Part shown: one piece after another, positions 3,209 to 63,755 of the stretch
How positions within the stretch are numbered: position 1 is the stretch's first letter
Layout of the letters: every line of letters starts with the position of its first letter
Source of the DNA: Massilia cavernae
GTDB taxonomy: Bacteria > Pseudomonadota > Gammaproteobacteria > Burkholderiales > Burkholderiaceae_D
DNA: 64,000 bases
Reading direction: 5' to 3'
Assembly (NCBI RefSeq): GCF_003590855.1
Contig: NZ_QYUP01000089.1
Span: forward strand, 1 to 64,000
The notes under the pieces: generated by a model
What the model was told of the DNA's origin: nothing
Database searches by the model: none
Seen by the model: the letters and a program-made list of their open reading frames with translations, nothing else
Position numbers and translations under genes: made by a program

Positions 3209-3219
3209 ACTCCGGGGCG

Positions 3220-13490: not shown

Positions 13491-13558
13491 GGCGCCGGGT
13501 GCCGTCCAACAACATGATACGCGCCCCCCAATCGGCCGGAACCCCCGGTCGGCCGCTT

Positions 13559-13576
13559 TAGTCTGCTCAGACGATG
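13559..13576 (+). promoter_or_regulatory. Steroid-cluster box 5 (CoA ligase promoter)
   Basis: Reads TAGTCT GCTC AGACGATG, the box with a symmetric C-to-T/G-to-A change in both inner arms that keeps the dyad. CATCAT follows 20 bp downstream at 13597-13602. The gene starts at 13704. Confidence 0.75.
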
Positions 13577-13703
13577 CAGGCGCAGTCCCTCGGGAACATC
13601 ATCGCTTTCAGGATGAGCAGAACCGCGCGTTGTTGCGCCGGTCTGCCCGCACATTATTTCACCGATATTGACAACCAGGAGAAGCGGATATGGAGCAGCG
13701 TGC

Positions 13704-18915: not shown

Positions 18916-19005
18916 TTCCTGCTCCACGATTGAATGACTGCTGTTGTTATCGGATCTACTATTACTGCCCTTACCGCCAAGCTTAGTGCCAAGGCCTGCC
19001 GCCAC

Positions 19006-19023
19006 CATCGTCCGAGCAGACTA
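19006..19023 (-). promoter_or_regulatory. Steroid-cluster box 6 (SDR-SnoaL-OYE operon)
   Basis: Minus strand TAGTCT GCTC GGACGATG. Its first three bases are the TAG stop codon of the upstream CoA ligase. A TAAGCT hexamer lies about 20 bp downstream. It starts a new promoter inside a long co-directional gene run. Confidence 0.75.
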
Positions 19024-23398: not shown

Positions 23399-23502
23399 TA
23401 CCGCTCCTTGGGTTGTGCCATGAGGGTGCAAGCCGGGCTTCGGCTTGCCCGCCAGGACACTGTCCTGGCGTAGTGAATCGTCCCACTTGCCGCCGCCGCG
23501 AT

Positions 23503-23520
23503 CATCGTCTGTCCGGACTA
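23503..23520 (-). promoter_or_regulatory. Steroid-cluster box 7 (kstD operon)
   Basis: Minus strand TAGTCC GGAC AGACGATG. A GACGAT hexamer begins 20 bp downstream. It lies in the 149-bp gap between the stop of the upstream ligase and kstD. Confidence 0.75.
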
Positions 23521-23547
23521 AAAACTGCCCGGAAGCGGGGCGGCGTT

Positions 23548-33495: not shown

Positions 33496-33570
33496 GGCAG
33501 TTCTCCTCAAGATCATTCGTCGTTGCGACTGCTGCTGATTGTCAATTTATAAGAAGCGGCCCAGCCCGAA

Positions 33571-33589
33571 TACGTCCATAAGGACGATG
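33571..33589 (+). promoter_or_regulatory. Steroid-cluster box 8 (shared by kshA and the side-chain operon)
   Basis: Plus strand TACGTCC ATAA GGACGATG facing kshA, with GAACAT 20 bp downstream. The dyad is near-symmetric: on the minus strand GGACGTAT is followed after 18 bp by TATAAA, facing chsH2. One box could therefore drive both divergent operons. Confidence 0.78.
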
Positions 33590-39992: not shown

Positions 39993-40012
39993 CATCGTCC
40001 CTTCGGACGACG
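39993..40012. promoter_or_regulatory. Steroid-cluster box 9 (divergent, nearly perfect dyad)
   Basis: CATCGTCC CTTC GGACGACG: arms match at seven of eight positions. It lies between the MFS gene (minus) and the double acyl-CoA dehydrogenase (plus). -10-like hexamers are weak on both sides (TACCTT 20 bp to the right; GACCAT about 20 bp to the left). Confidence 0.72.
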
Positions 40013-40069: not shown

Positions 40070-42361
40070 ATGGATTTCGCACTGACCCCGGAACAGGAAA
40101 TGATCCGCGACGCGGCGGCCGCCTTCCTGGCCGCACAAAGCGGCTCGGCCGCGATGCGGCAGGCGCATGGCCACGACGCCGGCCTGTGGCGCGCAATGGG
40201 CGAAGAACTGGGCTGGTGCGGCGTCGCCATCCCGTCGGCGCTGGGCGGGATGGGCATGGGACAGGTCGAACGCGCGCTGCTGATGGAGCAGATGGGCCGG
40301 CGCCTGGCGCCCGTGCCCTACCTGGCCAGCGCCTGCCTGGCGGCCGACGCCCTGCTGCATGCCGCCACCCCGGCGATGCAGCAGCGCTACCTGCCGGCGC
40401 TGGCCGCCGGCACGCTCGGCGCCGCGCTGGCACTGCCGGCGCCGGCCGGCTGGGATCCGGCCGCGTGTACCGTGAGCGCCAGCCGCCACGGCGCCGGCTA
40501 CGCACTGAGCGGCGAGGTCGCGCAGGTGCCCGGCGCGGCCCAGGCCGCACTGCTGCTGGTGCCGGCACGCCTGGACTGGCAACCCGGCGCATTCGGCCTG
40601 TTCGCGCTCGACGCGAATGCCGACGGCGTGGCCGTGACGGCGTTGCCGGCCCTGGATGCGACGCGCTCGATCGCGCGGCTGGCACTGAAACAGGCCGCCG
40701 GCATCCGCATCGACCCGGAGGACAACCCGGCCGCCCTCGGCGCCGGTTTGCACAAGACCGTCCACCTGGCCATGCTTGCGCTGGCCGCGGAACAGGTCGG
40801 CAGCGCCTGGCAATGCCTGGACCTGACCCTGGACTACGTCAGGCAGCGCAACCAGTTCGGCCGGACAGTCGCCTCGTTCCAGGCCGTCAAGCACCGCTGC
40901 GCGCAGATGCTCGTCATGCTGGAAGCGGCGCGCGCGGCCGTGTATGGGGCGCTGCGGGCTGCGTCCGCGCTGCCGGACGGCGCGCTCGGGTTCGAGGCGG
41001 CCTGCGCCAAGGATGCCGCCGGCACGGCGCTGTTCTTCTGCGCGCAGGAGGCGATCCAGTTGCACGGCGGCGTGGGCTTCACCTGGGAGTACGATCCGCA
41101 CCTGTACTTCAAGCGCGCGCAGGCGGCGCGCCACTGGCTGGGCGACGACGCCGGCTGCACCGCCCTGCTGGAGGAAGCGCCGCCGCTGCAAACAGGAGGC
41201 GAGCACGCCGGCCTGCGCGCCGAAGTCGCGGCATGGATGCACCAGCACCTGAAGGGCCAGTACGCGCCGCTGCATCACCGGGGCGGCCCGGGCGACGAGG
41301 ACGCCTTCCCGCGCGAGCGCAAGGCATGGGAAGCGGAACTGGCGGCCGGCGGCTGGACCTGCGTCGGCTGGCCGCGCAGCGCCGGCGGACGGGAGCTGCC
41401 GCCCGCCCAGCAGCTGGTGGTCCACGAGGAGTACGCGCGCGCCGGCGGGCCGGGCAGGATGGGCCACATCGGCGAAGGGCTGATCGGCCCTACCCTGATC
41501 GCGCACGGCAGCGCGGACCAGCAGGCGCGTTTCCTGCCCGGCATCCGCAACGGCACGATGTTCTGGTGCCAGGGTTATTCGGAACCCCATGCCGGCTCGG
41601 ACCTGGCCAACGTCCAGACCAGGGCGGTGCAGGATGCCGGCGGCGACTGGCTGGTGCACGGCCAGAAAGTCTGGACCTCGCTGGCGCATGAAGCGGACTG
41701 GATCTTCGTGCTGGCGCGCTGCAAGCCGGGCACGCGCGGCAAGCAGGGCCTGATCTTCCTGCTGATGCCGCTCGACCAGCCCGGCGTGACGGTGCGGCCG
41801 ATCCGCCAGATCGGCGGTTCGTCCGAGTTCAACGAAGTATTCTTCGACGGCGCCCGGGCCAGCGCCGCCGACGTCGTCGGCGCGCCCGGCGACGGCTGGC
41901 GCATCGCCATGGACCTGCTGGTCGCCGAGCGCGGCATGTCGACGCTGGGCCAGCAGATGCATTTCCGCCATGAACTCGAGCTGGTGGCCGACGCCGCGCG
42001 CGCCAACGGCGCCTGGCGCGACCCGGTGCTGCGGCGCCGCATCGGCCAGGCCCGCGCCGGCCTGCACGCCATGCGCTACAACGCGCTGCGGATGCTGTCC
42101 GACGCGGCCGGCCACGCCGGGCTGATCCACAAGTACCTGTGGTCGAACTGGCACCGGGCGCTGGGCGAACTGGCGATGGACGTGCTGGGCGCCGACGGCA
42201 ACCTGGTCGCGCCGGACGATGCCCGCCGCAGCCGCCTGCAAGCCTTGTTCCTGTTCAGCCGGGCCGATACGATTTATGCTGGCACCAATGAAATCCAGCT
42301 CAACATCATTGCCGAGCGCGGGCTCGGGATGCCGGGAGAGCCGCGCCGCGCCGCAGCCTAG
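40070..42361 (+). CDS. Fused double acyl-CoA dehydrogenase (FadE34-like)
   Basis: 763 residues with two complete acyl-CoA dehydrogenase modules: residues 1 to about 360 (QEAIQLHGGVGFTWEYDPHLYFKRA at its end) and about 390 to 763 (CQGYSEPHAGSDLANV, VHGQKVWTSLAHEADWIF, YAGTNEIQLNIIAERGLGMP). This is the layout of FadE34/ChsE3, which desaturates the five-carbon side chain of C24 bile-acid-type CoA esters. The N-terminal module has the divergent character of a FadE small subunit. ATG 40070 has AGGAAAA upstream. Followed by the amidase gene 75 bp on. Confidence 0.9.
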   Translation: MDFALTPEQEMIRDAAAAFLAAQSGSAAMRQAHGHDAGLWRAMGEELGWCGVAIPSALGGMGMGQVERALLMEQMGRRLAPVPYLASACLAADALLHAATPAMQQRYLPALAAGTLGAALALPAPAGWDPAACTVSASRHGAGYALSGEVAQVPGAAQAALLLVPARLDWQPGAFGLFALDANADGVAVTALPALDATRSIARLALKQAAGIRIDPEDNPAALGAGLHKTVHLAMLALAAEQVGSAWQCLDLTLDYVRQRNQFGRTVASFQAVKHRCAQMLVMLEAARAAVYGALRAASALPDGALGFEAACAKDAAGTALFFCAQEAIQLHGGVGFTWEYDPHLYFKRAQAARHWLGDDAGCTALLEEAPPLQTGGEHAGLRAEVAAWMHQHLKGQYAPLHHRGGPGDEDAFPRERKAWEAELAAGGWTCVGWPRSAGGRELPPAQQLVVHEEYARAGGPGRMGHIGEGLIGPTLIAHGSADQQARFLPGIRNGTMFWCQGYSEPHAGSDLANVQTRAVQDAGGDWLVHGQKVWTSLAHEADWIFVLARCKPGTRGKQGLIFLLMPLDQPGVTVRPIRQIGGSSEFNEVFFDGARASAADVVGAPGDGWRIAMDLLVAERGMSTLGQQMHFRHELELVADAARANGAWRDPVLRRRIGQARAGLHAMRYNALRMLSDAAGHAGLIHKYLWSNWHRALGELAMDVLGADGNLVAPDDARRSRLQALFLFSRADTIYAGTNEIQLNIIAERGLGMPGEPRRAAA

Positions 42362-42436
42362 TCCGTTGGGACGTTGCAGCCAGCGAAACGGGCTGCAAAT
42401 ATCGCCTTGACCACCTTTATCGACAGGAACCAGTAC

Positions 42437-43996
42437 ATGACCAAACCTACCCCATCCGGCGTTCCCGACAACGGCCGCCGCCGCCTGCTCGCGGGCGGCA
42501 CCCTGGCCGCCGGCGCCGCCCTGCTCGGCCCGTTCGCGCGCGCGGCGCAGGCCGCTCCCCGCGGCGCCATCAGCAGCGCCGACTACCTGGCGCTGGACGC
42601 CACCGCGATGGCCGAGGCGGTACGGCGCCGCCAGCTCAGCGGGGCCGAACTGATGGCGGCGGCGATGGCGCGCTGCGATGCGGTCAACCCGCGCGTCAAT
42701 GCGGTGGTGATGCGCCACGACGAACGTGCGCGCGCGCTGCTGGCTGGCGGCGCCGGCCGCGGCGGCGCACTGGCCGGGGTGCCGATGCTGGTCAAGGACC
42801 TGCAAACCCAGGTGGCGGGCACCGTCACCACCCACGGCAGCCGGCTGTTCCGCGACGCCCCACCAGCCGAGCGCAGCAGCACCCTGGTCGAGCGCTACGA
42901 AGCGGCAGGTTCGGTGGTGTTCGGCAAGACCTCCTCGCCCGAGTTCGGCCTGAGCACGACCACCGAATCGCGCCAGTGGGGCCAGACCCGCAATCCGTGG
43001 AACCTGGCGCACAGCGCCGGCGGCTCGTCCGGCGGCGCGGCCGCCGCGGTGGCGGCCGGCATCATCCCGGCCGCCCACGCCACCGACGGCGGCGGCTCGA
43101 TCCGCATCCCGGCCTCGTACTGCGGCCTGTTCGGCCTGAAGCCGAGCCGCTACCGCACGCCGTCCGGACCGCTGCGCTACGAAGGCTGGTTCGGCGCCAG
43201 CGTCGGCCACGTGGTCTCGCGCAGCGTGCGCGATTCGGCCTTGCTGCTCGACGTGGGCCACGGCCACGAAGCGGGCAGCCCGTACTGGAGCGCACCGCTG
43301 GAGCGCCCCTTTGTCGCCGAGCTCAAGCGAGCGCCTGGCAAGCTGCGCGTCGCCCTGGTCGCCGATGCGCTGACGGGCGCCCCGCTCGATCCGGCCATCC
43401 GCCGCACTCTCGACGACACCGTGAAGCTGCTGCTCGGCCTCGGCCACCATGTCGACGCCGACCGCCTGGGGCTCGATCCGCGCCAGCTGTTCGGCTCGCA
43501 CGGCGCCGTGGTCGGCGCGGCCTTGCTGGCCACCGTGCGCGACCGCGAGCAGCAGCTCGGGCGCGCGCTTGCCACCGATGAGCTGGAGCAGGTTACCCAC
43601 CACATCCTGCGCAACGGCGCCACCGTCACCGGCGAAGGCCTGTACCGCGCACGCCAGGGCTTCGAGAGCATCACCATGGGCATGGAAAGCATGCTGGCCA
43701 AATACGATGTGATCCTGTCGCCGGTGACCGCCACCGTCACCCCGCTGCTAGGCGCGCTGTCGCTCGACCAGGCCTACGAGTCGTACGCCCGCGCCGCGAT
43801 GGGCAGCGCCGCATTTACCCTCCCGGCCAACGTGGGCGGCCAGCCGTCGATGTCGGTGCCGCTCGGCTGGAGCGATGACGGCCTGCCGATCGGCATGATG
43901 TTCACCGCACGCATCGGCGCCGAAGGCCTGCTGTTCCGCCTCGCCGCGCAACTCGAGCGCGAACGTCCCTGGGCCCAGCGCCGCGCCCAGCTCTGA
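42437..43996 (+). CDS. Amidase-signature hydrolase with Tat-type signal (candidate bile-salt amidase)
   Basis: 519 residues. The N-terminus has NGRRRLLAGGTLAAGAALL, a twin-arginine-like export signal followed by ARAAQAAP, so it probably works in the periplasm. Catalytic Lys in VPMLVKDLQTQ, Ser residues in HSAGGSSGGAAAAVAAG and DGGGSIRIPASYCG complete the Ser-cisSer-Lys triad. Between a C24-type dehydrogenase and a TonB receptor, it could remove glycine or taurine from conjugated bile salts; that substrate is inferred. Other amides are possible. Confidence 0.85.
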   Translation: MTKPTPSGVPDNGRRRLLAGGTLAAGAALLGPFARAAQAAPRGAISSADYLALDATAMAEAVRRRQLSGAELMAAAMARCDAVNPRVNAVVMRHDERARALLAGGAGRGGALAGVPMLVKDLQTQVAGTVTTHGSRLFRDAPPAERSSTLVERYEAAGSVVFGKTSSPEFGLSTTTESRQWGQTRNPWNLAHSAGGSSGGAAAAVAAGIIPAAHATDGGGSIRIPASYCGLFGLKPSRYRTPSGPLRYEGWFGASVGHVVSRSVRDSALLLDVGHGHEAGSPYWSAPLERPFVAELKRAPGKLRVALVADALTGAPLDPAIRRTLDDTVKLLLGLGHHVDADRLGLDPRQLFGSHGAVVGAALLATVRDREQQLGRALATDELEQVTHHILRNGATVTGEGLYRARQGFESITMGMESMLAKYDVILSPVTATVTPLLGALSLDQAYESYARAAMGSAAFTLPANVGGQPSMSVPLGWSDDGLPIGMMFTARIGAEGLLFRLAAQLERERPWAQRRAQL

Positions 43997-44022: not shown

Positions 44023-44034
44023 CTCCAGCGCCGC

Positions 44035-44052
44035 TAGTCCGCATGGACGATG
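44035..44052 (+). promoter_or_regulatory. Steroid-cluster box 10 (second TonB receptor promoter)
   Basis: TAGTCC GCAT GGACGATG, a consensus box. TATGAT at 44072-44077 starts exactly 19 bp downstream. The gene begins at 44141. Confidence 0.82.
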
Positions 44053-44140: not shown

Positions 44141-46333
44141 ATGCATCCAACCATCCATGCGAAATACCGACTAACCCTGCTGGCACAGCTGCTCGGGGCC
44201 GCCTTCGCGGCCCCTGCCCTCGCCCAGAGCCCGCCGCCCGCCGCCACCGACGACGCGCCGCAAGTGGTGATGGTCACCGCCCAGAAGCGCAAGGAAAAAC
44301 TGCAGGACGTGCCGGTCGCGGCCACCGCTCTCAGCGCCCGCGAACTCGAGATGCGCGGCCTGGACAACGTCGCTAACCTCGGCTCGATCGCGCCCAACCT
44401 GGCCGTCACCCACACCCCCGGCAATTCGACGGCGGCGCAGATCTCGATCCGCGGCTCGGTCACCATCAATCCCGCGCTGTTCTGGGAGCCGACGGTGGGC
44501 ATGTACGTCGACGGCGTCTATTCGGGCAAGGTGCAAGGCGCGGTGATGGACCTGGTCGACCTCGAACGGGTCGAGGTGCTGCGCGGCCCGCAAGGCACCC
44601 TGTACGGGCGCAACACGATGGCCGGCGCGATCAACTTCATCACCCGCAAGCCATCCGGCGAACTGGGCGGATCCGCCACGCTCGAGGTGGGCAACTACCG
44701 CGCGCGGGTCGGCAAGGCCACGCTCGACCTGCCGCGCGTGGGCATCTTCAAGGCCACGGTGGGCATGCGCGCAGAACGGCGCGACGGCTGGGTCACCACC
44801 ACGCCGGGCAGCTCGGTGCCGGAGCTGAACAACCGCGACGGCCAGTCCGCCCGCATCGCGCTCGACGCCGATGCCAGCGAAGACGTCCAGTTCAGCTACC
44901 GCTACGACGCCAGCCGCGCCGACCAGAACGGCAGCTTCTCGCAGGTGGTGCATTCCGACTTGCCTGTTCCCGGCATCGTCGTCACGCAGGGGCGCACCGA
45001 ACGCGCCAGCGTCGACGCGCCATCGCTGGAAAAGATGGACAGCGACGGCCACGCGCTGAGCGCCGACTGGAAGCTCGACGCCGGCAACACCCTGAAGGCC
45101 ACTGTCGCCACCCGCGCCCTGACTTGGGACGACGGCCTTGACCTGGACGGCTCGCCGATCCCGCTGGCGCAGGCGGAGCGCCATTCGACCTACCGGCAAC
45201 GGTCGGCCGAACTGCAACTGACCGGCCAGCGCGGCGCCTGGTTTTACGTGATGGGGCTGTACGCATTCCGCGACGATGGCTTCACCAACAATCCGCAGTC
45301 GTTCTTCTTCGGCGCCGCCAACTACGATTCGCAATACGGTTTCACCACCGACGCGAAGTCGGCCTACGCGCAGCTGGATTACCAGATCACCGAACAGCTC
45401 AGGGTCAGCGCCGGCCTGCGCTACACCGAAGAAGACAAAACCATTTCCCGCTTCCTGGCCGGCCCGGGCGTGTCGGTACCGTTTGGCACCGCCGGCGCGG
45501 CGACCTTCCGCGCGACGACGCCATTGCTCAGCGTCGGTTACAAAGTCAACGCGCGCGTCAACGTCTACGCCAAGTACGCCGAAGGCTTCAAGAGCGGCGG
45601 CTTCAACGGCGAGGCGAGCGACGTCGTCGAAACCTTGACCCCGTTCCGGCCCGAGAAGCTGAAGTCGGTCGAAGCGGGCCTGAAGACCACGCTGGCCGGC
45701 GGGACTACCCTCAACCTGGCGCTGTTCAACAACCTCACCACCGACCTGCAGGAATCGATCTTCACCGCCCAGGGCGCGGCGGCGTCGAACATCCGCAACG
45801 CCGGCAAGGCCACCACGCGCGGGCTGGAACTCGAATTCGGCACGCGTCCGGCCCAGGACCTGCGCCTGCAGGCCAGCTATGGTTACCTCAGCGCGCACTA
45901 CGACGAATTCATCGACCGTGGCGTCAACGTCGCCGACAACCGTGCCATGGTGCACGCGCCGAGGCACAGCCTGAACCTGCTGGCCGACGCCACCCTCAGC
46001 CGCAACTCCTACGGCACCTGGCGCGCGCTGGCCGACTACGTGTATTCCGCTTCGCATTACAGCTATCCTTACCAGCTGCGGCAAACCGACCCGTCCTCCG
46101 CGGTGGCCGGCAACAGCCGGATCGCCGCGGCGGGCTTCCTCAACCTGCGCCTGGCGCTGTCGGGTATTGCGGTCGGCGGCACGCGCCATGAGATCGCGTT
46201 CTGGGCGCGCAATGCGCTCGACAAGGAGCACGTGGCCAACTACATCGATTTCGGTCCCGGCTTCGGCAACCTGCGCCAGGCCTACTATGCGCCGCCGCGC
46301 ACCATCGGCGCTACGCTGAAATCCACGTTCTAA
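44141..46333 (+). CDS. TonB-dependent outer-membrane receptor
   Basis: 730 residues. Signal peptide to about residue 29 (APALAQ), TonB box VVMVTAQ, plug with LERVEVLRGPQGTLYGRNT, and a barrel ending in Phe (LKSTF). It shares the AQKRKEKLQDVP start of the mature protein with the receptor at 8061-10412, so the two are paralogues that may divide different steroids or bile salts between them. Driven by box 10; ends at a strong bidirectional terminator. Confidence 0.92.
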   Translation: MHPTIHAKYRLTLLAQLLGAAFAAPALAQSPPPAATDDAPQVVMVTAQKRKEKLQDVPVAATALSARELEMRGLDNVANLGSIAPNLAVTHTPGNSTAAQISIRGSVTINPALFWEPTVGMYVDGVYSGKVQGAVMDLVDLERVEVLRGPQGTLYGRNTMAGAINFITRKPSGELGGSATLEVGNYRARVGKATLDLPRVGIFKATVGMRAERRDGWVTTTPGSSVPELNNRDGQSARIALDADASEDVQFSYRYDASRADQNGSFSQVVHSDLPVPGIVVTQGRTERASVDAPSLEKMDSDGHALSADWKLDAGNTLKATVATRALTWDDGLDLDGSPIPLAQAERHSTYRQRSAELQLTGQRGAWFYVMGLYAFRDDGFTNNPQSFFFGAANYDSQYGFTTDAKSAYAQLDYQITEQLRVSAGLRYTEEDKTISRFLAGPGVSVPFGTAGAATFRATTPLLSVGYKVNARVNVYAKYAEGFKSGGFNGEASDVVETLTPFRPEKLKSVEAGLKTTLAGGTTLNLALFNNLTTDLQESIFTAQGAAASNIRNAGKATTRGLELEFGTRPAQDLRLQASYGYLSAHYDEFIDRGVNVADNRAMVHAPRHSLNLLADATLSRNSYGTWRALADYVYSASHYSYPYQLRQTDPSSAVAGNSRIAAAGFLNLRLALSGIAVGGTRHEIAFWARNALDKEHVANYIDFGPGFGNLRQAYYAPPRTIGATLKSTF

Positions 46334-46391: not shown

Positions 46392-47588
46392 TTACACGAA
46401 AGGATCGGCGTTCGGCAAACCAAGCATGACGGCGCCATGCGCGCGCGCGTAGGCGTCGGTGTTGTTGGCGATGTGGCCACGCGACTGGTAGATGTCGCGC
46501 AGCGTACGCTCGACCGGGTTGGTCTTGTACATGCCCGAGGCGGCGCTAGCGCGCATCAGCGCATCGACCCGCTCGGCGCACACCTTCGGCACCTGGGCCG
46601 ACTGGGCGCGCTGCAGCAGGCGGTCCTCGACCGACATCCGCTCGCCGGTGACCGCGCACTCGACCACGCGCGCGATATTGCGCATCAACACCAGCTTGAG
46701 GGCGTCGACCGTCATCATCGCTTCCGACACCGCGCTTTGCGCGTTCGGGTCTTCCGCCGTCTTGCCGCCGTGCTTGCCGACGTGGGCTGCGGCGCGCCGG
46801 CGAAAATCGTCGATCGCTCCCTGCAGGGCGCCAATGCACGCGCCCGAAACGGCGCGCTGGAACACCTGGGTGAACGGGATCTTGTACAGGGGCGCCGAGT
46901 TGTGCGCGCGCCCCGGGCAGCCGGCGTCGCTGTGGTCGTTGGTGCGCTGGGTGCGGTGGGCCGGCACGAACACGTCCTCGACGACGATGTCGTGGCTGCC
47001 GGTCGCGCGCAGGCCAAGGACGTCCCAGTTATGCACGATCGTGAAGTCGGCTGCCGGCAGCAGGAAGGTGGTGTGTTCGAGCGCGCCGGAACCGTCCTGC
47101 TTCGGCAGCAAGCCGCCCAGGAAGATCCATTGGCAATGTTCGACCCCGCTGGAGAACGACCAGCGGCCGGAGAAGCGGTAGCCGCCCTCGACCGGCTCGG
47201 CCTTTCCTGTCGGCATGTAAGTCGAGGCGATCAAGGTGCCGGTGCCGCCCGACCAGACGTCTTGCTGCGCCTGTTCCGGGAACAAGGGCAGCTGCCAGTT
47301 GTGGACCCCGATCACGCCATAGATCCAGGCGGTCGACATGCAGCCTTCCGCGAGCGTCATCTGGACCTGGTAGAACACGCGCGGATCGAGCTCGTAGCCG
47401 CCGAAGCGGCGCGGCTGCAGCACCCGGAACAGTCCCGCTTCCTGCAGGTCGCGAATGGTCTCCACCGGCACCTTGCCGGCCTTTTCCGCCTCGGCGGCGC
47501 GCGCCGCCAGCACCGGCACCAGCGCGCGTGCGCTTTCAATCAGCCTGATCGCATCGAGCGTCATATAGGTTTCGTTAGGCCTGCTCAT
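46392..47588 (-). CDS. hsaA: 3-HSA monooxygenase, oxygenase component (HsaA/TesA type)
   Basis: 398-residue flavin-dependent monooxygenase with an acyl-CoA dehydrogenase fold, group D. It uses reduced flavin from HsaB to hydroxylate 3-hydroxy-9,10-seconandrostatriene-dione to the catechol. Features include GLFRVLQPRRFGGYE, GRWSFSSGVEHCQWIFLGG, LGLRATGSHDIVVEDVFVP and RDIYQSRGHIANN. ATG 47588 follows GAGGAGTGAG. It is transcribed away from its reductase gene; boxes 11 and 12 lie between them. Confidence 0.9.
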   Translation of the reverse strand: MSRPNETYMTLDAIRLIESARALVPVLAARAAEAEKAGKVPVETIRDLQEAGLFRVLQPRRFGGYELDPRVFYQVQMTLAEGCMSTAWIYGVIGVHNWQLPLFPEQAQQDVWSGGTGTLIASTYMPTGKAEPVEGGYRFSGRWSFSSGVEHCQWIFLGGLLPKQDGSGALEHTTFLLPAADFTIVHNWDVLGLRATGSHDIVVEDVFVPAHRTQRTNDHSDAGCPGRAHNSAPLYKIPFTQVFQRAVSGACIGALQGAIDDFRRRAAAHVGKHGGKTAEDPNAQSAVSEAMMTVDALKLVLMRNIARVVECAVTGERMSVEDRLLQRAQSAQVPKVCAERVDALMRASAASGMYKTNPVERTLRDIYQSRGHIANNTDAYARAHGAVMLGLPNADPFV

Positions 47589-47669
47589 CTCACTCCTCGT
47601 TGTCGGTAGTTTGTACGCCGCGCCACGCGCGGGGCATGAAGGCATGTTCCCACCGCCGCCACGCCGCTT

Positions 47670-47687
47670 CATCGTCTGAGCGGACTA
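47670..47687 (-). promoter_or_regulatory. Steroid-cluster box 11 (hsaA promoter)
   Basis: Minus strand TAGTCC GCTC AGACGATG, with GAACAT 20 bp downstream at 47644-47649. hsaA starts at 47588. Confidence 0.78.
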
Positions 47688-47703
47688 ACGCGGCGCGCAT
47701 GAC

Positions 47704-53170: not shown

Positions 53171-53227
53171 GTCATTGTTCCCTGTAGTTATGGTCACCTT
53201 ACTGTAGGAGCGCGCCGAGGCGACGGA

Positions 53228-53246
53228 TACGTCCAAAGGGACGATG
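53228..53246 (+). promoter_or_regulatory. Steroid-cluster box 13 (enoyl-CoA hydratase/coaD; possibly also the SDR)
   Basis: TACGTCC AAAG GGACGATG, with GATGAT 20 bp downstream facing the hydratase gene. The reverse arm GGACGTAT faces the SDR gene with TACAGT at a similar distance, so the site may serve both. Confidence 0.75.
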
Positions 53247-53320: not shown

Positions 53321-54130
53321 ATGCACAGCGCAACAGCGCAAGCCCCATCCGGACCGGCCATGCCGGAACTGGTCGTCGAACGCCCGCACGAGGGAGTCGC
53401 CCTGGTCTTGCTAAACCGGCCCGACGCCACCAATGCCCTCAGCCTGAACCTGCAGGCGCTGCTGTCGGCCGCATTCACCGAACTGTCCGCCGATCCGGCG
53501 GTGCGCGTCATCATCCTCAGCGGCGGCGCCAAGGTGTTCGCCGCCGGCGGCGACATCAAGAGCATGGTCGATGCCGGCCCGATCGACATCATGCAGCGCC
53601 ATACCGAGCGCGTATGGGCGCCGCTCGAGCGCTGCCCGAAACCGGTGATCGCGGCGGTGTGCGGCTTTGCCTTTGGCGGCGGCAACGAACTGGCCATGCA
53701 TTGCGATATCATCATCGCCGGGGAAAACGCCAGCTTCGCCCAGCCGGAGATTCGCATCGGCATCATGCCGGGCATCGGCGGCACCCAGCGCCTGGTGCGC
53801 GCGGTGGGCAAGTTCAACGCCATGCGGATATTGCTCACCGGAAAACCGATCAGCGCCGCCGAAGCCAGCCAGATGGGCCTGGTCAGCCTGGTGGTGCCGG
53901 ACGACAAGGTGCTGGACGAAGCGTTGGCGATGGCGCGCACCATCGCCGCCATGCCGCCGCTGGCGGCCATGCAGATCAAGGAAGTGGTGCTGGCGGGCAT
54001 GGATGCGCCGCTCGACGTCGCCCTCATGCTCGAGCGCAAGGCCAATCAGTTATTATTCGCCAGCCATGACCAGCAGGAAGGCATGCAGGCATTCATCGAC
54101 AAACGCAAGCCCGCCTATCAGGGCCGTTAG
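53321..54130 (+). CDS. Enoyl-CoA hydratase/isomerase (crotonase family)
   Basis: 269 residues. LNRPDATNALS, oxyanion-hole segments KVFAAGGDIKSM and CGFAFGGGNELAMHCD, and PEIRIGIMPGIGGTQRL with both catalytic Glu positions filled. It probably hydrates an enoyl-CoA of the side chain or CD-ring path, like EchA19 or related enzymes. ATG 53321 has GAAGGAGGAA upstream. coaD starts 9 bp after its stop. Confidence 0.88.
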   Translation: MHSATAQAPSGPAMPELVVERPHEGVALVLLNRPDATNALSLNLQALLSAAFTELSADPAVRVIILSGGAKVFAAGGDIKSMVDAGPIDIMQRHTERVWAPLERCPKPVIAAVCGFAFGGGNELAMHCDIIIAGENASFAQPEIRIGIMPGIGGTQRLVRAVGKFNAMRILLTGKPISAAEASQMGLVSLVVPDDKVLDEALAMARTIAAMPPLAAMQIKEVVLAGMDAPLDVALMLERKANQLLFASHDQQEGMQAFIDKRKPAYQGR

Positions 54131-55084: not shown

Positions 55085-55441
55085 TTAATCGTCGGCATCC
55101 TGGCGTACGGCGGACAGCTGCTTGAGCAGCTCCGGCAGCGCCGTTTGCACGGTGTCCCACACCACGTCGAGGTTGATGTCGAAGTAGCCGTGCGCGATAC
55201 GGTTTCGCATGCCGCGCATACTGCGCCAAGGCACCTCAGGATGGGCCTGTGTGAATTCAGCATAGACATCCATCACCTTCGTCGCGGCCTCGCCGATGAT
55301 GATGAGACTCATGATGACGGCCTGCTGGGTTCGCTTGTCCTTCAGGAAGTCATCTTTGACCAGCCCTTCCATGAAGCCACATGCATCTGTCGCCGCCTGC
55401 CGCATGTGGTCAAGGTAATCGGGCAGGCGGTTCTCGCTCAT
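55085..55441 (-). CDS. hepT: HepT-like toxin (DUF86)
   Basis: 118 residues. HEPN-family RNase motif R-x4-H-x-Y in RNRIAHGY (Arg79, His84, Tyr86). In type VII systems HepT is neutralised when its partner adds AMP to the motif Tyr. Its start overlaps the stop of the nucleotidyltransferase gene by 4 bp, the usual antitoxin-then-toxin order. Confidence 0.88.
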   Translation of the reverse strand: MSENRLPDYLDHMRQAATDACGFMEGLVKDDFLKDKRTQQAVIMSLIIIGEAATKVMDVYAEFTQAHPEVPWRSMRGMRNRIAHGYFDINLDVVWDTVQTALPELLKQLSAVRQDADD

Positions 55442-55728
55442 ACCGGCCGCGCCTCCGCAAGTACCTTGGCCCGGAACTTCGGCGGCAGATCGGCCGGGGT
55501 CAGCAAGTCGACGCGGATTCCAAGCAGCGATTCCAGCTCATCATGCAAACCGCCCAGGTCGAACAGCGTCGCGCCGGGCAGCGCATCGACCAGCAGATCG
55601 AGGTCGCTGCCGTCCCGGTCGGTGCCGTGCAGCACCGATCCGAAGACGCGCGGGTTCGCCGCACAGAAGCGGCCTGTCGCTTCGCGCACTGCGCTTCGCT
55701 TCATATCGAGCACAACGGACGGTCGCAT
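55438..55728 (-). CDS. mntA: MntA-like nucleotidyltransferase antitoxin
   Basis: 96 residues with the minimal nucleotidyltransferase motif GS-x10-D-x-D (Gly30-Ser31 to Asp42 and Asp44). Such proteins AMPylate the cognate HepT toxin. First gene of the pair. A 12-bp palindrome upstream at 55792-55803 may be its operator. Confidence 0.88.
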   Translation of the reverse strand: MRPSVVLDMKRSAVREATGRFCAANPRVFGSVLHGTDRDGSDLDLLVDALPGATLFDLGGLHDELESLLGIRVDLLTPADLPPKFRAKVLAEARPV

Positions 55729-58099: not shown

Positions 58100-60217
58100 T
58101 CATACCATCCGGCCAACGCGATTCCCTTCGTGCATGGCCTGTTCGATGTAGCCGATGCCGTTGCAGTCGCCCGCGGAGTACAGCGGCACGCCGCAGCCGG
58201 CCAGCATGCGCGTCACGCTGTCGTCCGCTTCGGCGCCGACCGCCAGCACCACCGAATCGGCGGCGCTGCGCCGGGTGGCGCCGCCGGCGTCCTGCCACAC
58301 CACCTCTTTTGCCGTGATCGCCGTGACTTTGGCCTGGCGATGCAAGGTGCCGTGCCCTTCGACCGCTTCCAGCACGCGCCAGCGGCGCACGATCGGCAGT
58401 TCGCGCCCGGGCTTGTCGCTTTCTTCGAGCACCGTCACCGCGCGTCCGCGCGCCAGCAGGAACTCGGCCAGCTCGAGGCCGACCAGGCCGCCGCCGACGA
58501 TCACCACCCGCGCGCCGATCGGCATCCACAGCTTCGACAGGCTTTGAACGGCCCTTGCGCTGTCGGTCACGCCGATCATGCCGCCGGCCTTGAACATGGC
58601 GCGCTCGGTGAGGCTGAGCTTGGCCTTGGCGATGGCGTCGGCGTCGTCGCCGGTCATCAGTCGGCGCAGTTCGTCGCCGCTCCACACGTGCTTCTGGCCG
58701 GCTCCTTCAATGGCGGGCGCCGCGCGGCGCGCGCCGCTGGCCACCACGATCGCGTCGGGCTTCAGGCGCGCCACCAGTTCGGGCGTGGCCGCCGTCGACA
58801 GGCAGACCTCGATTGCCGACTGCTTCACCTGGTTCACCAGGTAGTCGAGCAGGCGGCCGTTTTCCGGATAGGCCAGGCCGGCGAAGAACAGCGTGCCGCC
58901 CATCCGGGAACTGCGTTCGACCAGGGTGACCCGGTGCCCGCGCAGCGCCGCTACGCGCGCCGCCTCCATGCCGGCCGGGCCGGCGCCGACCACCAGCACG
59001 TGGCGCGGCGCGGCGGCCGGCTCGATGGCGGCCTCGGATTCGTGTCCGGTCAGGGCATTGACCGCGCACTTGACGCGCTGGTTGATGAAAATCTGGCTGA
59101 CGCAGGCATAGCAGTAGATGCAGGGGCGGATGTCCTGCGGCCTGTTCTGCTCCAGCTTGATCGGAATGTCGGGGTCGGCCAGCAGCTTGCGCGCCATCGT
59201 CACGTAGTCGAAGTCGCCCTGCGCGATGTGCGCGGCGGCGCTTTCCGCCTCGATGCGCCCGGCCGCAATCACCGGCACATCGACCGCCGCGCGCACCGCG
59301 CGCGCATAGCCAACGAAGGCGTCCGGCGCCTGCGGCAGCGGCGCCTCGGTGAACGCGGTGCCGGTGTCGATCATGGCGTAGGCCGACATGCTGATCGCGT
59401 CGGCGCCGGCGTCGACCGCGATGCGCGCGGTGGCCACCGCATCGGCCAGCGTGATGCCGCCCGGGGTGCGCAGCTCCTCGCCATCGAGCCGCACCCATAC
59501 CGGGAAGCCAGCGCCGGTGCGTGCCTTGACCGCCGCGATCACTTCGCGCAGCAGGCGCGCGCGGTTCTCGATCGGACCGCCGTAGCCGTCCTCGCGCCGG
59601 TTGTAGTACGGCGACAGGAAGCCGGCCAGGATATAAGTATGTGCCGCATGCAGCTCGACGGCGTCGAAACCGGCCTGCTGCGCGCGCGCGGCGGCGGCGG
59701 CGAAGAACTCGACCATCTGGTCGATATCGGCCTGCTCCATCACGCGCAGTTTCGGCACGCCGCGCGGGCGCACGAAGCTGGCCAGTTCCTCGTTGGTGAT
59801 TGCGGCCATGATATCCGTCTTGAACGACGGCGGCAGCGACGGCACCCACACCTCGCGCCCTTCGGCGGCGTCGCGCGCGGCGGTCTTGCCCGCATGCTGA
59901 AGCTGCATCGCGATCTTGGCGCCGTGCCGGTGCACGCGCTCGGCAATGCCGGCCAGGCCGGGAATGAAATCGTCGCGCGAGACGCCGACCTGGAACGGCT
60001 CGGCGGTGCCGTGCGGGTAGGCGATGGCGCAGGAGCCCATCGTCAGCAGGCCGGCGCCGCCCTTGGCGCGCGCTTCGTAGAAGGCCTGGATACGCTCGCC
60101 GCAACTACCGTCTTCCTCGGCGAAGTTGGAGCCCATCGGCGCCATCATGATCCGGTTGCGGATCTCGAGCGTGCCGATGCGGCCCGGTTGGAACAGTGCT
60201 TGATAGGGATTGCCCAA
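58100..60217 (-). CDS. BaiCD/2,4-dienoyl-CoA reductase-like FMN/FAD/Fe-S oxidoreductase
   Basis: 705 residues. Residues 1 to about 360 form an Old-Yellow-Enzyme TIM barrel (MAPMGSNFAEEDGS, MQLQHAGKTA, DAVELHAAHTYILAGFLSP). A 4Fe-4S motif follows in CIYCYACVSQIF with the last Cys in VKCAVN. The C-terminal half has FAD (VVGAGPAGMEAARVAA) and NAD(P) (VIVGGGLVGLELAEFL) folds. Relatives include FadH and the bile-acid enzymes BaiCD/BaiH. It probably reduces or desaturates a C=C next to a keto group of a steroid. Starts with TTG at 60217, with GGAGG 5 bp upstream. Confidence 0.87.
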   Translation of the reverse strand: MGNPYQALFQPGRIGTLEIRNRIMMAPMGSNFAEEDGSCGERIQAFYEARAKGGAGLLTMGSCAIAYPHGTAEPFQVGVSRDDFIPGLAGIAERVHRHGAKIAMQLQHAGKTAARDAAEGREVWVPSLPPSFKTDIMAAITNEELASFVRPRGVPKLRVMEQADIDQMVEFFAAAAARAQQAGFDAVELHAAHTYILAGFLSPYYNRREDGYGGPIENRARLLREVIAAVKARTGAGFPVWVRLDGEELRTPGGITLADAVATARIAVDAGADAISMSAYAMIDTGTAFTEAPLPQAPDAFVGYARAVRAAVDVPVIAAGRIEAESAAAHIAQGDFDYVTMARKLLADPDIPIKLEQNRPQDIRPCIYCYACVSQIFINQRVKCAVNALTGHESEAAIEPAAAPRHVLVVGAGPAGMEAARVAALRGHRVTLVERSSRMGGTLFFAGLAYPENGRLLDYLVNQVKQSAIEVCLSTAATPELVARLKPDAIVVASGARRAAPAIEGAGQKHVWSGDELRRLMTGDDADAIAKAKLSLTERAMFKAGGMIGVTDSARAVQSLSKLWMPIGARVVIVGGGLVGLELAEFLLARGRAVTVLEESDKPGRELPIVRRWRVLEAVEGHGTLHRQAKVTAITAKEVVWQDAGGATRRSAADSVVLAVGAEADDSVTRMLAGCGVPLYSAGDCNGIGYIEQAMHEGNRVGRMV

Positions 60218-60273
60218 GTGCGCCTCCGGTTCGATTGGTTGTGGCCCATGATGGCCGCGCCGCGGCAGTGCCG

Positions 60274-60294
60274 CATCGTCCGTTTGCAGGACGC
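60274..60294 (-). promoter_or_regulatory. Steroid-cluster box 14 (BaiCD-like operon)
   Basis: Minus strand GCGTCCTGCAAAC GGACGATG: an intact right arm and a left GTCC shifted outward. CATCAT begins 20 bp downstream. The predicted transcript would start about 25 bp before the TTG codon. Confidence 0.62.
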
Positions 60295-60326
60295 CGGGGC
60301 GCGCAGGGAGCGCGCAGCACGGCGGC

Positions 60327-61511
60327 CTAGGGCTGGTTGCCGAGCAGCGCCACGCTGTTGAGGAAGATGCGAACCAGCTCGGTCTGGCGCCTGACCCCGG
60401 TCTTGGAAAAGATCGAACGCAGGTGCGCGCGTGCGGTGTTGCGGCGGATATTCAGCGCTTCCGACGCTTCGTCGAGCGACAGCCCGTTGGCCAGCTGGAT
60501 CGCCAGCGCGGTTTCGGCCGGGGTCAGCTGGAACAGTTGCTGGGCCAGCCGGGCCGGCGGTTCCGAGCGGCTTTCGGCATCGCGCATGAACACGGCGACG
60601 CTGGGACGGCGCTTGCCCTCGGTCCATTCGGTCGAGTGGATCGCCTGCGCCACCACACCCCAGGCGACGCGGCCGGACGGCCGGCTGAGCGACATCGCCT
60701 CGACCATCGAGGTCTTGCCCGGCTCTCCCTGGCTGAGCACTTTCTGGATCATCTGGTACAGCTTACGGTTGTCCGCCGGGTAGGAAGCGCACAGCTTGTT
60801 CGACGAGATCGTGATGCCGTCGCCTCGTGCGATGATGTCGTTGGCCATCGCGTTGCGTTCGAGGATGACGCCGTTCTCGTCGAGCACGAAGACGCCCACC
60901 ATCAGCTGCCCCATCGCGTGGCGGTACATCGAATCGACCTGGCGGTCATGGTTGATCGCCGCATACAGCGAAAGCGCGCGCCGCAGGTGCGGGATCAGGT
61001 ACTCGCACAGGCTGCGGTCGGCAGCCGAAAACGCCGGCGCTTCGGGCGGGCGGGTGATGCGCAAGCCGTAGATGCCGAGTCCGGGCAGGTCGATATCGAC
61101 CGCCATCACGTGGAATATGCCGTGCGGTTCGCACCAGTCGCGGTAGTACAGCGATGCGCGCCATTCGTCCGGCGAGAGCAGGTCGCTGGTGGTGACCACG
61201 CGTTCCGGGCGCATGCTGGAAAACGGGCTGAGCCCGACCGTCGGATGGTGGCGCGACAGCACCCGCAGGTCGCCCGAGGCGGAAATGACGTAGCCCATGT
61301 CGGCGGCGGAGGCGCGCCGCACGATCAGCGAGCAGTAGTTGCCGGCGAACTTGCGGCGCAGCTGTTCGAGGCAGGCCGACCAGCTGTCGGCATCCTGCGC
61401 GGTGTCGTAGATCGCCCCCACCAGGTGGCTGAAGCACTCGATCGACAGCTGAGGCGGTACGGGCAAAGGATTGTCTTGGTTCATTTCCATCTTACAAGTA
61501 AGTATAGGCAT
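60327..61511 (-). CDS. LuxR-type transcriptional regulator (TeiR-like), candidate activator of the cluster
   Basis: 394 residues. The C-terminal 60 residues form a LuxR helix-turn-helix (LTPAETALAIQLANGLSLDEAS followed by NTARAHLRSIFSKTGVRRQTELVRIFL). The large N-terminal part has no receiver domain and looks like a ligand-sensing region (possible PAS-like VGVFVLDENGVILERNAMAND near 235). Size and layout resemble TeiR, the testosterone-inducible activator of Comamonas testosteroni. ATG 61511 is chosen because GGGGAGG lies upstream; ATG 61490 is an alternative. It lies 46 bp behind a thiolase gene that carries box 15, so it may be under its own control. It is the only complete regulator gene seen here. 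Confidence 0.85.
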   Translation of the reverse strand: MPILTCKMEMNQDNPLPVPPQLSIECFSHLVGAIYDTAQDADSWSACLEQLRRKFAGNYCSLIVRRASAADMGYVISASGDLRVLSRHHPTVGLSPFSSMRPERVVTTSDLLSPDEWRASLYYRDWCEPHGIFHVMAVDIDLPGLGIYGLRITRPPEAPAFSAADRSLCEYLIPHLRRALSLYAAINHDRQVDSMYRHAMGQLMVGVFVLDENGVILERNAMANDIIARGDGITISSNKLCASYPADNRKLYQMIQKVLSQGEPGKTSMVEAMSLSRPSGRVAWGVVAQAIHSTEWTEGKRRPSVAVFMRDAESRSEPPARLAQQLFQLTPAETALAIQLANGLSLDEASEALNIRRNTARAHLRSIFSKTGVRRQTELVRIFLNSVALLGNQP

Positions 61512-61557
61512 TCGACCGCCTCCCCGCAAGCACCGTCGGCGCCGTCGGCGCCCCCCA

Positions 61558-62760
61558 TCACTCCAGCTCGAACAGCGCCGCGGCGCCCATGCCGCCGCCG
61601 ATGCACATGCTGACCACCACGTGGCGCACGCCGCGCCGGCGCCCTTCGAGCAGCGCATGGCCGACCAGCCGCGCGCCCGACATGCCGAACGGATGGCCGA
61701 TGGCGATTGCGCCGCCGTTGACGTTCAGGCGCTCGGCCGGAATGCCGAGCTGTTGGGCGCTGTACAGCACCTGGCAGGCGAAGGCTTCGTTGATTTCCCA
61801 CAGGCCAATATCGGCCACCGTCATGCCGTGCCGCTTGAGCAGCTTGGGGATGGCCAGCACCGGCCCGATGCCCATTTCCTCGGCGCCGCAGCCGGCCACG
61901 GCCAGGCCGCGGTAGGCGCCCAGCGGACGCAGGCCACGCCGCGCGGCTTCGGCGCGGCTCATCAGTACCGAGGCCGAGGCGCCGTCAGACAATTGCGAGG
62001 CGTTGCCGGCGGTGATGAACTGCCCCTCCCGCACCCACTTGCCGTCCTTCCACACCGGTTTCAGTGCAGCAAGGCTCTCGAGCGTGGTGCCAGGGCGGTT
62101 GCCCTCGTCCTGGAGCAGGGTCATGTTTTCGCTGCCGGCCGGCTGCCCTTCCTTGTCGAACAACTGGCGCACGCTGGGCAGCGCCACGATTTCCTCGCCG
62201 AACAGGCCGGCCTGCTGGGCGGCCGCAGTGCGCTGCTGGCTCTGGAACGAATATGCGTCCTGTTCGGCGCGCGAGATGCCGTAGCGCTGCGACACGATCT
62301 CGGCGGTTTCGATCATCTGGATGTAGGCCGCCGGCGCCGCCGCCAGCACCGCCTGCGACTGCGACCGGTAGCTGTTCTTGTGCTTGTTCTGCACCAGCGA
62401 GATCGATTCGAGGCCGCCACCGACCGCGATATTGTATTCGCCGTGCATGATGCCCTTGGCGGCGGTGGCGATGCTGACCAGGCCGGAGGCGCACATGCGG
62501 TCGATCGTCATGCCGCCGACCGACTCCGGCAAGCCGGCGGTGTAGGTGCACAGGCGCCCCAGGTTATAGCCCTGGCTGCCCTGCTGGGCGGCGATGCCGA
62601 GGATGACGTCATCGACGTCGGCGCCGTCGACTCCGGCCTTGTCGAGCGCGGCGCGGATCACATGCCCGCCCAGCACCGGCGCTTCGGTGTCGTTGAAGGC
62701 GCCGCGGAAGGCCTTGCCGATCGGCGTGCGGGCGGTGGAAACGATGACGGCTTCTTGCAT
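61558..62760 (-). CDS. Acetyl-CoA acyltransferase (thiolase, FadA5/FadA6-like)
   Basis: 400 residues with a full thiolase set: nucleophile Cys near 90 in DRMCASG, His in [14 protein letters not shown], and a C-terminal catalytic Cys in SMCIGGGMG. True thiolytic enzyme, in contrast to the lyase-type homologues at 3295 and 29859. It likely releases acetyl-CoA or propionyl-CoA from a steroid side chain or CD-ring 3-ketoacyl-CoA. First gene of a thiolase-regulator unit with box 15 upstream. Confidence 0.92.
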
Positions 62761-62854
62761 GATATGGGCTCTCGGTGGAAGTGGAAAAGGGCCGCCGGCG
62801 GATCGCCGCGGCGGCCATCGTTCATCCCATTATCAGGAGGGCCCTTGCGTGCGG

Positions 62855-62874
62855 CATCGTCTTGTCGGACGATG
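62855..62874 (-). promoter_or_regulatory. Steroid-cluster box 15 (thiolase-luxR promoter)
   Basis: CATCGTCT TGTC GGACGATG, the most symmetric box (one mismatch between arms). Facing the thiolase gene it is followed after 20 bp by GATAAT at 62829-62834, a good -10. It would place the regulator gene under its own presumed operator. Confidence 0.8.
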
Positions 62875-62879
62875 CCCGG

Positions 62880-63755
62880 CTAGCTGCCGTAGACTGCTTG
62901 CGGCGCCGGCGCCGCGGCGATCAGCTGGTCGATCACCGGGCCCAGTTCGGCCGGATCCCAGCGCGCGCCCTTGTCGCGCACGGTGCCGGTGCGCCAGCCG
63001 TCGGCCAGCGACAGTTCGCCGCCCTTGGCCTCGAAACAGCGCCCGCTGACGCCGCGCCCGAGCGTGCTGCCCAGCCACACCACCAGCGGGGCCACGTTCA
63101 TCGGATCCCATGCGTCGAAGCCGGATTCCGGTGCTTTCACCATGTCGGGCATCGCGCTTTCCGTCATCAGCGTGCGCGCGGCCGGTGCCAGGCAGTTGAC
63201 GGTGATGTCGTAGCGCGCCATTTCGGCCGCCTGCACCAGGGTCAGCGCGGCGATGCCGGCCTTGGCGGCGGCGTAGTTGGACTGGCCGATCGAACCTTGC
63301 AGGCCGGCGCCGGAACTGGTGTTGATGATGGCCGCCTGCGGCGCCCGCCCGGCCTTCGCCTCAGCGCGCCAATGGCGGCCCAGCACCCCGGCCAGGCAGA
63401 AGTGCCCCTTCAGGTGGACCCGCATGACCTCGTCCCAGTCGTCTTCCGTCAGCGACAGGAACATGCGGTCGCGCAGGATGCCGGCGTTGTTGACCAGCAC
63501 ATGCACCGCGCCGAAGGCGGCCAGCGCGGCGTCGAGGATGCGCTGCGCGCCCACCGTGCTGGTGATGTCGTCGCCGTTGGCGATGGCCCGGCCGCCGGCG
63601 GCCGTAACCTCGGCCGCCACCGCCTCGGCGGCCGCCGGCCGTACGTCGTTGACCAGCACGCTGGCGCCCTCGGCCCCGAAGGCGAGCGCGTAGGCGCGGC
63701 CAAGGCCGCCGCCGGCGCCGGTGATGATGACGACCCGTTGATCGCAGATACCCAT
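62880..63755 (-). CDS. 3-hydroxyacyl-CoA dehydrogenase-type SDR (Hsd4A/MFE-2-like)
   Basis: 291 residues, longer than classical SDRs. TGAGGGLGRAYALAFGAEGASVLVND is typical of MFE-2/17-beta-HSD4 SDRs; also LVNNAGILRDRMF, INTSSGAGLQGSIGQSNYAAAKAGIAALT (read in parts: Ser, Tyr, Lys triad), and a long C-terminal extension. It likely oxidises the 3-hydroxyacyl-CoA of a steroid side chain before thiolysis by the neighbouring thiolase. ATG 63755 has CAGGAGAAG upstream. Confidence 0.85.
   Translation of the reverse strand: MGICDQRVVIITGAGGGLGRAYALAFGAEGASVLVNDVRPAAAEAVAAEVTAAGGRAIANGDDITSTVGAQRILDAALAAFGAVHVLVNNAGILRDRMFLSLTEDDWDEVMRVHLKGHFCLAGVLGRHWRAEAKAGRAPQAAIINTSSGAGLQGSIGQSNYAAAKAGIAALTLVQAAEMARYDITVNCLAPAARTLMTESAMPDMVKAPESGFDAWDPMNVAPLVVWLGSTLGRGVSGRCFEAKGGELSLADGWRTGTVRDKGARWDPAELGPVIDQLIAAAPAPQAVYGS

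Follow-up and report, generated by a model that had tools for sequence, protein, structure and literature searches.

The 64,000-nucleotide stretch analysed here (the window; positions 1 to 64,000 of contig NZ_QYUP01000089.1 of Massilia cavernae, assembly GCF_003590855.1) carries, close to its end, the gene of a LuxR-type regulator that resembles TesR/TeiR of Comamonas testosteroni, together with a repeated palindromic box proposed as its operator. The source genome comprises 5.44 Mb in 201 contigs, is 94% complete and yielded a single copy of the regulator. The regulator open reading frame (ORF; 60327–61511, minus strand) lies directly downstream of the ORF for an acetyl-CoA acyltransferase (thiolase; 61558–62760, minus strand), which opens an operon whose last gene is the regulator. 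In front of the thiolase, starting 5 bp past the stop codon of the upstream short-chain dehydrogenase/reductase (SDR) gene, lies a perfect 20-bp dyad (62855–62874, minus strand), the proposed TesR box and predicted driver of thiolase and regulator. A −10 hexamer, GATAAT (62829–62834, minus strand), follows exactly 20 nt past the box in the thiolase direction, with an inferred transcription start at about 62822, and no −10 was found toward the SDR side. Matches to HsaA, to ketosteroid dehydrogenase and to steroid-CoA-ligase-like proteins, all below the NCBIfam cut-offs, indicate a steroid-degradation cluster around these genes. An earlier, sequence-based description of the locus (the original prediction) had called the gene the only complete regulator in the window, and indeed no other helix-turn-helix (HTH) regulator family was among the matches listed for the 50 window ORFs that were scanned, 34 of them against Pfam and 16 against NCBIfam alone; these 50 are a subset of all ORFs.

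The regulator can be read from ATG 61511 as a protein of 394 amino acids or from ATG 61484 as one of 385. Comparison with Massilia niastensis, the closest named relative (86%), revealed that one base is lost there just after the equivalent of ATG 61511, so that the frame then hits a stop, and that ATG 61484 and the surrounding DNA are kept. Because only the latter start is conserved, the 385-residue form (60327–61484, minus strand) and a 73-bp gap to the thiolase are preferred, and ATG 61484 is probably the true start. The 394 residues given originally are thus doubtful, and of the statement that the regulator lies 46 bp behind the thiolase the gene order stands and the distance does not. The gap contains a candidate weak internal promoter, TTGCGG-17-TATACT (61501–61529, minus strand), whose first hexamer matches the −35 consensus in three of six positions; the DNA is conserved in M. 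niastensis with a spacer of 16, and the regulator may be driven in part from here. A sigma-70 consensus scan of 60200–63000 returned a single promoter-like site, TTTCCA-17-TATCAT at the thiolase start, and listed neither the box promoter nor the internal candidate; since both were missed, the scan is not decisive.

Pfam analysis of the regulator at E ≤ 0.001 identified a C-terminal LuxR-type HTH (GerE, 24.6 bits; cut-off 23.5), in agreement with the earlier assignment, a PAS domain (24.9 bits; cut-off 22.6) and HTH_30, and no autoinducer-binding match. A PDB sequence search at E ≤ 0.1 returned nothing other than HTH fragments of the VraR/ComA type (E 0.017–0.068). In the predicted structure, an alpha/beta GAF-type domain at about residues 9–181 of the 385-residue form is followed by the PAS domain and the HTH. 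Because the model has a predicted local distance difference test score (pLDDT) of 76.8 and a predicted template-modelling score (pTM) of 0.50, its domain arrangement is not trusted and the individual domains are used. The GAF-type domain matched 3p01 with Z 13.7 (root-mean-square deviation (rmsd) 3.7, 159 residues aligned) and LasR (3ix4) with Z 12.6 (rmsd 3.4, 154 aligned), and other GAF chains matched equally well; the Foldseek and VIA results consisted mostly of GAF and phytochrome chains, with LasR, CviR and VqsR tied with them. The modelled protein would therefore combine a GAF-like domain, a PAS domain and a LuxR-type HTH, and the N-terminal region, once described as uncharacterised, is no longer wholly so.

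The two ends of the protein differ in conservation. Among homologues from the main clusters, the HTH (residues 325–390) is 86–97% identical, and residues 22–190 of the sensor part are 40–52% identical (82% in M. niastensis). A homologue on a Vibrio plasmid, 43% identical overall, retains 82% identity in the HTH and has IRRNTARAHLRSIFSKTGVRRQTELVR unchanged. A near-fixed HTH next to a drifting sensor is as expected if all homologues read one operator. In Burkholderia-type homologues of 38–39% identity (G285), the recognition region is altered to SKNTARSHLRA, and the genomes that carry them still have composite sites as defined below.

Assignment to the TesR/TeiR kind relies on genome G845. Its ketosteroid isomerase is 100% identical to a query sequence that we take to be the C. 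testosteroni enzyme and that matches steroid-isomerase entries over its full length; G845 is therefore taken as probable C. testosteroni. Of 31 window proteins tried (one a doubtful ORF), 29 match its steroid mega-cluster at E 1e-20 or better. The Massilia regulator is 57% identical to the regulator within this cluster (contig C26 of G845), which is presumably TesR/TeiR, and the thiolase is 82% identical to a counterpart that immediately precedes the regulator there too. From the positions of homologues of the window SDRs, taken as steA and steB, the G845 gene appears to occupy the tesR end of the region running from steA to tesR, as mapped in PMC13101464 (papers are cited by PubMed Central (PMC) identifier, each for an excerpt of its text). 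The label TeiR-like can thus be kept, the 57% referring to the G845 protein and not to a published TesR or TeiR sequence. Two further TesR-like paralogues, each at 49% identity, are encoded on contigs C9 and C15 of G845.

The palindrome at 62855–62874, CATCGTCYNNNNRGACGATG, is the sole copy in the window with zero mismatches, in accordance with its earlier description as the most symmetric box, and the good −10 claimed for the thiolase promoter is the GATAAT described above. Allowing up to three mismatches, the pattern has 16 matches in the window compared to 1.33 expected, a number reached by none of 100 shuffled sequences. The core pair GTCY/RGAC occurs 13 times with a middle of 4 nt and 0–6 times with middles of 0–3 or 5–12 nt, and 1–7 times in 30 simulated sequences; the oriented consensus is GTCY-N4-RGACGATG. 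Four matches, one of the core at 56474 and three further hits at 20840, 23892 and 42202, appear to be due to chance and were dropped. We accepted 13 sites, namely 12 with the exact core and a degenerate one at 60274, which do not necessarily amount to the 15 promoters counted originally.

To describe the promoters, sites were oriented by their better half-site and taken from the window, M. niastensis, G400, G402 (Roseateles), G245, G845 and G093 (Comamonas-type) and the Vibrio plasmid region; 65 of 94 oriented entries, one better half-site each, were counted. Sites from G285 and those with an imperfect core were left out (Vibrio kept), orthologous sites are not independent, and the 62855 box is not among the 65 because it is perfectly symmetric. 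The gene-proximal half-site is nearly always GACGATG, and the distal half is variable (TTAGTC, CATCGTC, ATACGTC). The hexamer nAnnAT was found at offset 20 in 37 of the 65 sites, compared to an average of 0.69 when offsets 19 and 20 are set aside, and in the window alone in 7 of 11 oriented sites compared to 0.13. By source, the counts were 10/14 for M. niastensis, 6/9 for G845, 6/10 for G093, 5/9 for G402 and 3/5 for G400. Among all 13 accepted window sites, nAnnAT stands at offset 20 in nine, at offset 19 in two and at neither in two. With nAnnAT exactly 20 nt past the box, and assuming the usual 7 nt between the −10 and the transcription start, the dyad would be centred at about −42.5, which coincides with the published location of the 20-bp lux box (PMC3376562, PMC4471428, in part). 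The proximal half-site would then occupy the −35 position, where no TTGACA-like sequence is present. With starts placed in this way, the layout appears to be that of a class II activator. In M. niastensis, box and GATAAT are the same as at 62855.

We then compared the DNA upstream of 22 regulators of at least 52% identity, the window included (11 more such copies were left out). In 19 of the 22, a box followed by nAnnAT exactly 20 nt later precedes an operon that ends in the regulator, at a distance of 1.34 kb from the regulator in both Massilia and of 2.6–2.9 kb in the others; several of the genomes are closely related, so that these are not 19 independent events. One of the remaining three, G533, offers 381 bp of upstream sequence and could not be assessed; it has composite sites elsewhere in the genome, as has G570. 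The G845 operon below the box consists of genes for an SDR, a MaoC-like dehydratase (named by eye), the thiolase and the regulator. On the Vibrio plasmid the box precedes etfB-etfA-regulator, with TACGCT and not nAnnAT at offset 20. The C15 paralogue of G845 has a box of its own 246 bp upstream, and the C9 and C15 paralogues are possible competing readers of the same operator.

In line with these observations, published RNA-seq of C. testosteroni JLU460ET after 3 h with testosterone gives log2 changes of 5.35 for fabG, 5.57 for acyl dehydratase, 5.07 for thiolase and 4.88 for LuxR (excerpt of PMC10637631), i.e. a rise of approximately 30- to 47-fold that includes the regulator; this gene run was equated with the G845 operon by gene order and name only. 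Together, the activator-type position of the box, the 19 of 22 upstream boxes and this induction by testosterone lend good comparative support to the two earlier proposals of an own operator and of positive autoregulation, and to the reading of the regulator as a positive autoregulator of the TesR type.

Regulator and box promoter also co-occur across genomes. Strong homologues of the regulator (at least 34% identity, E < 1e-58) were found in 4 of 399 Burkholderiales genomes. HsaA matches at E ≤ 1e-100 were present in each of these four and confined to them, and the regulator match that ranked next had 28% identity (5e-30). The box alone was rejected as a genome-wide marker, as regulator-free genomes hold it as well; GTCYNNNNRGACGATG was counted 18 times in the window's genome and 19 times in G845. 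Discrimination thus rests on the clustering of boxes and on a composite of box and −10, defined as GTCYNNNNRGACGATG-N21-ANNAT. This composite gave 80 matches in 13 of 13 regulator-bearing genomes and none in 15 of 15 without a homologue of at least 34% (G239 among the latter has one at 26%), and a backward control gave 0. G401, G848, G849, G420, G544 and G406 are positive genomes that had no role in its definition. In G845, G848, G849, G093 and G399, all 33 matches are confined to a single regulator-containing stretch, about 60–105 kb long. In the window's genome, seven of eight composite sites are in the window and the eighth is on contig 177, and the regulon seems to extend beyond the window contig. 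In a second set of 16 genomes or records, 13 were positive, with 55 matches in all, and 12 of the 13 had played no part in the definition. Among the positives are plasmids of Vibrio alfacsensis, Burkholderia arboris, Cupriavidus necator and Caballeronia whose homologues have 37–43% identity; the three sites on the Vibrio plasmid are all outside the 41-kb stretch around the regulator, one adjoining its end. No composite was found in three sphingomonad plasmids that have HsaA and LuxR homologues of only 28–34%. Both sets combined, the composite is present in all 26 genomes or records, the window's included, with a regulator homologue of at least 36%. A class-level HsaA search for steroid degraders without the regulator brought up no new genome (2 of 369), and the three sphingomonad plasmids served as a weaker control in its place.

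The box family, the preferred −10 spacing, the co-occurrence with the regulator and the conservation in front of its operon form the sequence basis for the following mechanism, which we consider probable: a TesR/TeiR-family one-component activator bound to its box at class II promoters would drive the steroid operons as well as its own. A regulator dimer is predicted to bind the 20-bp dyad GTCYNNNNRGAC(GATG) directly, with its centre near −42.5, and to recruit RNA polymerase to promoters in which the gene-proximal half-site replaces the −35 hexamer and the −10 reads nAnnAT, thereby switching on the steroid operons of the cluster. At the 62855–62874 box the same event would turn on the thiolase-regulator operon and close a positive feedback loop. 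The ligand would be a steroid or an early catabolite; the original prediction had put forward a steroid or steroid-CoA. The regulator thus very probably turns on steroid-degradation genes and its own gene through the repeated 20-bp box.

Several observations weigh against this mechanism. Transcription of the regulator could start, independently of the box, at the conserved promoter-like sequence immediately in front of it, so that autoregulation may account for its control only in part. Six of the eight sources supply all 37 sites that have nAnnAT at offset 20, and G245 (0/4) and the Vibrio region (0/3) contribute none. G570 and the second G820 copy lack a box in about 6 kb of upstream DNA, and none was found within 8 kb for the more distant homologues of G245, B. 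arboris, C. necator (two) and Sphingobium or for the C9 paralogue of G845. In JLU460ET, according to the excerpt of PMC10637631, the regulator operon did not change significantly with estradiol or at 13 h, and many cluster genes did. GTCYNNNNRGACGATG occurs 2–16 times in many regulator-free genomes (12 in G056, 16 in G802), and 7 of the 13 positive genomes of the first set helped to define the composite. The three sphingomonad plasmids are the only steroid-positive control; as regulator-free genomes mostly lack steroid genes too, co-occurrence alone cannot name the binder.

This last point leads to an alternative in which the boxes are read by a different regulator encoded elsewhere and the LuxR gene is a passenger of the cluster. 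HsaA and strong regulator homologues share the same 4 of 399 genomes, so that the correlation of regulator and box could be with any component of the cluster, and some clusters contain other regulators: LysR, XRE and response-regulator genes in Comamonas, for which the excerpt of PMC10637631 shows no value in JLU460ET, and a second HTH gene in Vibrio. In contrast, the ORFs scanned in the window matched no other HTH-regulator family, the HTH is conserved along with the box, and the box stands before the regulator's own operon in most close homologues; in Vibrio it heads a different operon (etfB-etfA), which likewise ends in the regulator. Moreover, the HsaA-bearing sphingomonad plasmids, which have no close homologue, have no composite site either. 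Taken together, we regard a different reader as unlikely.

Alternatively, the regulator could repress by occupying the −35 region until a steroid releases it, as the overlap of the box with the −35 position would allow; a LuxR-type repressor of a steroid gene in C. testosteroni is mentioned in the excerpt of PMC6678751. However, promoters that lack a TTGACA-like −35 and place a weak −10 at a spacing of 20 nt have the arrangement of activated promoters, and the literature, as far as excerpted, assigns TeiR/TesR a positive regulatory role, which makes repression very unlikely. We consider even less probable the published model for C. testosteroni TeiR, in which TeiR-type proteins are membrane-associated kinases that start a phosphorylation cascade, with another factor binding the DNA. 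Kinase activity and a polar or membrane location of TeiR are reported in reviews (PMC6678751, PMC8399759, both in part), yet neither Pfam nor NCBIfam detected a kinase domain in the Massilia regulator, its best 19-residue hydropathy of 1.36 points to no obvious membrane helix, and its LuxR HTH is highly conserved; the predicted protein, with neither a kinase family nor a strong membrane segment, does not agree well with reports of TeiR as a kinase. Finally, the 62855 palindrome as a mere hairpin or terminator behind the SDR gene, suggested by a perfect inverted repeat so close to the stop codon, is rejected as extremely improbable, because the site has no T run and is not listed as terminator-like, its sister sites are mostly asymmetric, and G845 and Roseateles retain box and −10 without having the SDR homologue as the adjacent gene.

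Several known systems come close. TesR/TeiR of C. testosteroni shares with the Massilia regulator the LuxR HTH, the location in a steroid mega-cluster, the order of thiolase and regulator, and the upstream box. The Massilia operon is shorter (thiolase and regulator), in contrast to SDR, MaoC-like dehydratase, thiolase and regulator in Comamonas, and the Massilia protein shows no sign of a kinase domain. With LuxR, TraR and CarR at the lux box it has in common the 20-bp dyad, the inferred centre at −42.5 and the LuxR HTH; among LuxR-type activators, the N-terminal fold match to the ligand-binding domains of LasR, CviR and VqsR ties with many GAF chains. Unlike LuxR, TraR and CarR, the Massilia regulator has an additional PAS domain, different box letters and no quorum-sensing context. 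VqmA, which binds 3,5-dimethylpyrazin-2-ol (DPO), likewise combines a PAS domain with a LuxR HTH, and Foldseek lists 6ugl, 6kju and 7dwm as weak matches over part of the model; VqmA is not known to have an N-terminal GAF-like domain. KstR and KstR2 of actinobacteria also regulate steroid catabolic gene sets, and an excerpt of PMC8700777 mentions a palindromic operator before kstR itself, but these are TetR repressors released by steroid-CoA-type ligands and not LuxR-type activators.

In the open-licence PMC papers, as far as their text was available, the operator and its promoter geometry did not turn up, and a TeiR site in Comamonas may have been mapped and published before; likewise, no paper on testosterone degradation by Massilia was found in the open-licence PMC literature. 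The regulation of bile-acid and steroid degradation in proteobacteria is called largely unknown in the excerpt of PMC8399759. With an operator of preferred geometry defined, the TesR regulon can be predicted from sequence in those 26 genomes or records in which the operator occurs; the question of activator versus kinase becomes decidable, and parts for steroid biosensors become available. The claim repeated in PMC6895838 (in part), that tesR-like genes occur only in C. testosteroni, is contradicted by close homologues in Massilia, Paucibacter and Roseateles. We give even chances to a broader proposal: that beta- and gammaproteobacteria, a Vibrio plasmid included, share the box with nAnnAT at +20 as a portable steroid response promoter; that its readers are soluble GAF-PAS-LuxR receptors of a single family, which detect a steroid catabolite directly and whose sensors diversify with a fixed DNA-reading head; and that the published membrane-kinase model of TeiR is wrong or incomplete.

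The other accepted boxes are distributed over the whole window. Those on the plus strand are 3218–3237 (nAnnAT at offset 19), toward the gene at 3295–4509; 13557–13576 (−10 CATCAT), toward an acyl-CoA ligase (13668–15542); 33570–33589 (GAACAT), toward a Rieske-oxygenase-like gene (33656–34753); 42357–42376 (AAATAT), toward an amidase ORF (42374–43996, real start further in); 44033–44052 (nAnnAT at offset 19), toward a TonB receptor (44141–46333); and 53227–53246 (GATGAT), toward an enoyl-CoA hydratase (53321–54130). On the minus strand, the box at 10545–10564, without nAnnAT at offsets 15–25, points toward a TonB receptor (8061–10418), and that at 19006–19025, with TAAGCT at offset 20 and no nAnnAT, toward an SDR ORF (18175–19008, real start further in). 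The boxes at 23503–23522 (GACGAT) and 47670–47689 (GAACAT) face the ketosteroid dehydrogenase gene (21656–23431) and an hsaA-like ORF (46392–47672, real start further in), respectively. The degenerate box at 60274–60293, with CATCAT 20 nt later, precedes an old yellow enzyme (OYE)/FadH-like gene (58100–60217) and has a counterpart in M. niastensis (C13:63186). The site at 39993–40012 has GACCAT on the minus strand and TACCTT on the plus strand.

Beyond the window contig, the composite site on contig 177 (8231–8272), ACAATAAT, resembles an M. niastensis site near a homologue of the window's major facilitator superfamily (MFS) transporter. The plasmid NZ_CP140104.1 of the marine V. alfacsensis carries a steroid-degradation-like cluster with an HsaA 73% identical to that of the window, the 43% TesR homologue and box sites, and two more V. 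alfacsensis plasmids match both HsaA and the TesR homologue. Within the steroid cluster of the window, a HepT-like ribonuclease gene lies beside a small ORF (55085–55441 and 55438–55728), perhaps a HepT-MNT toxin-antitoxin pair.

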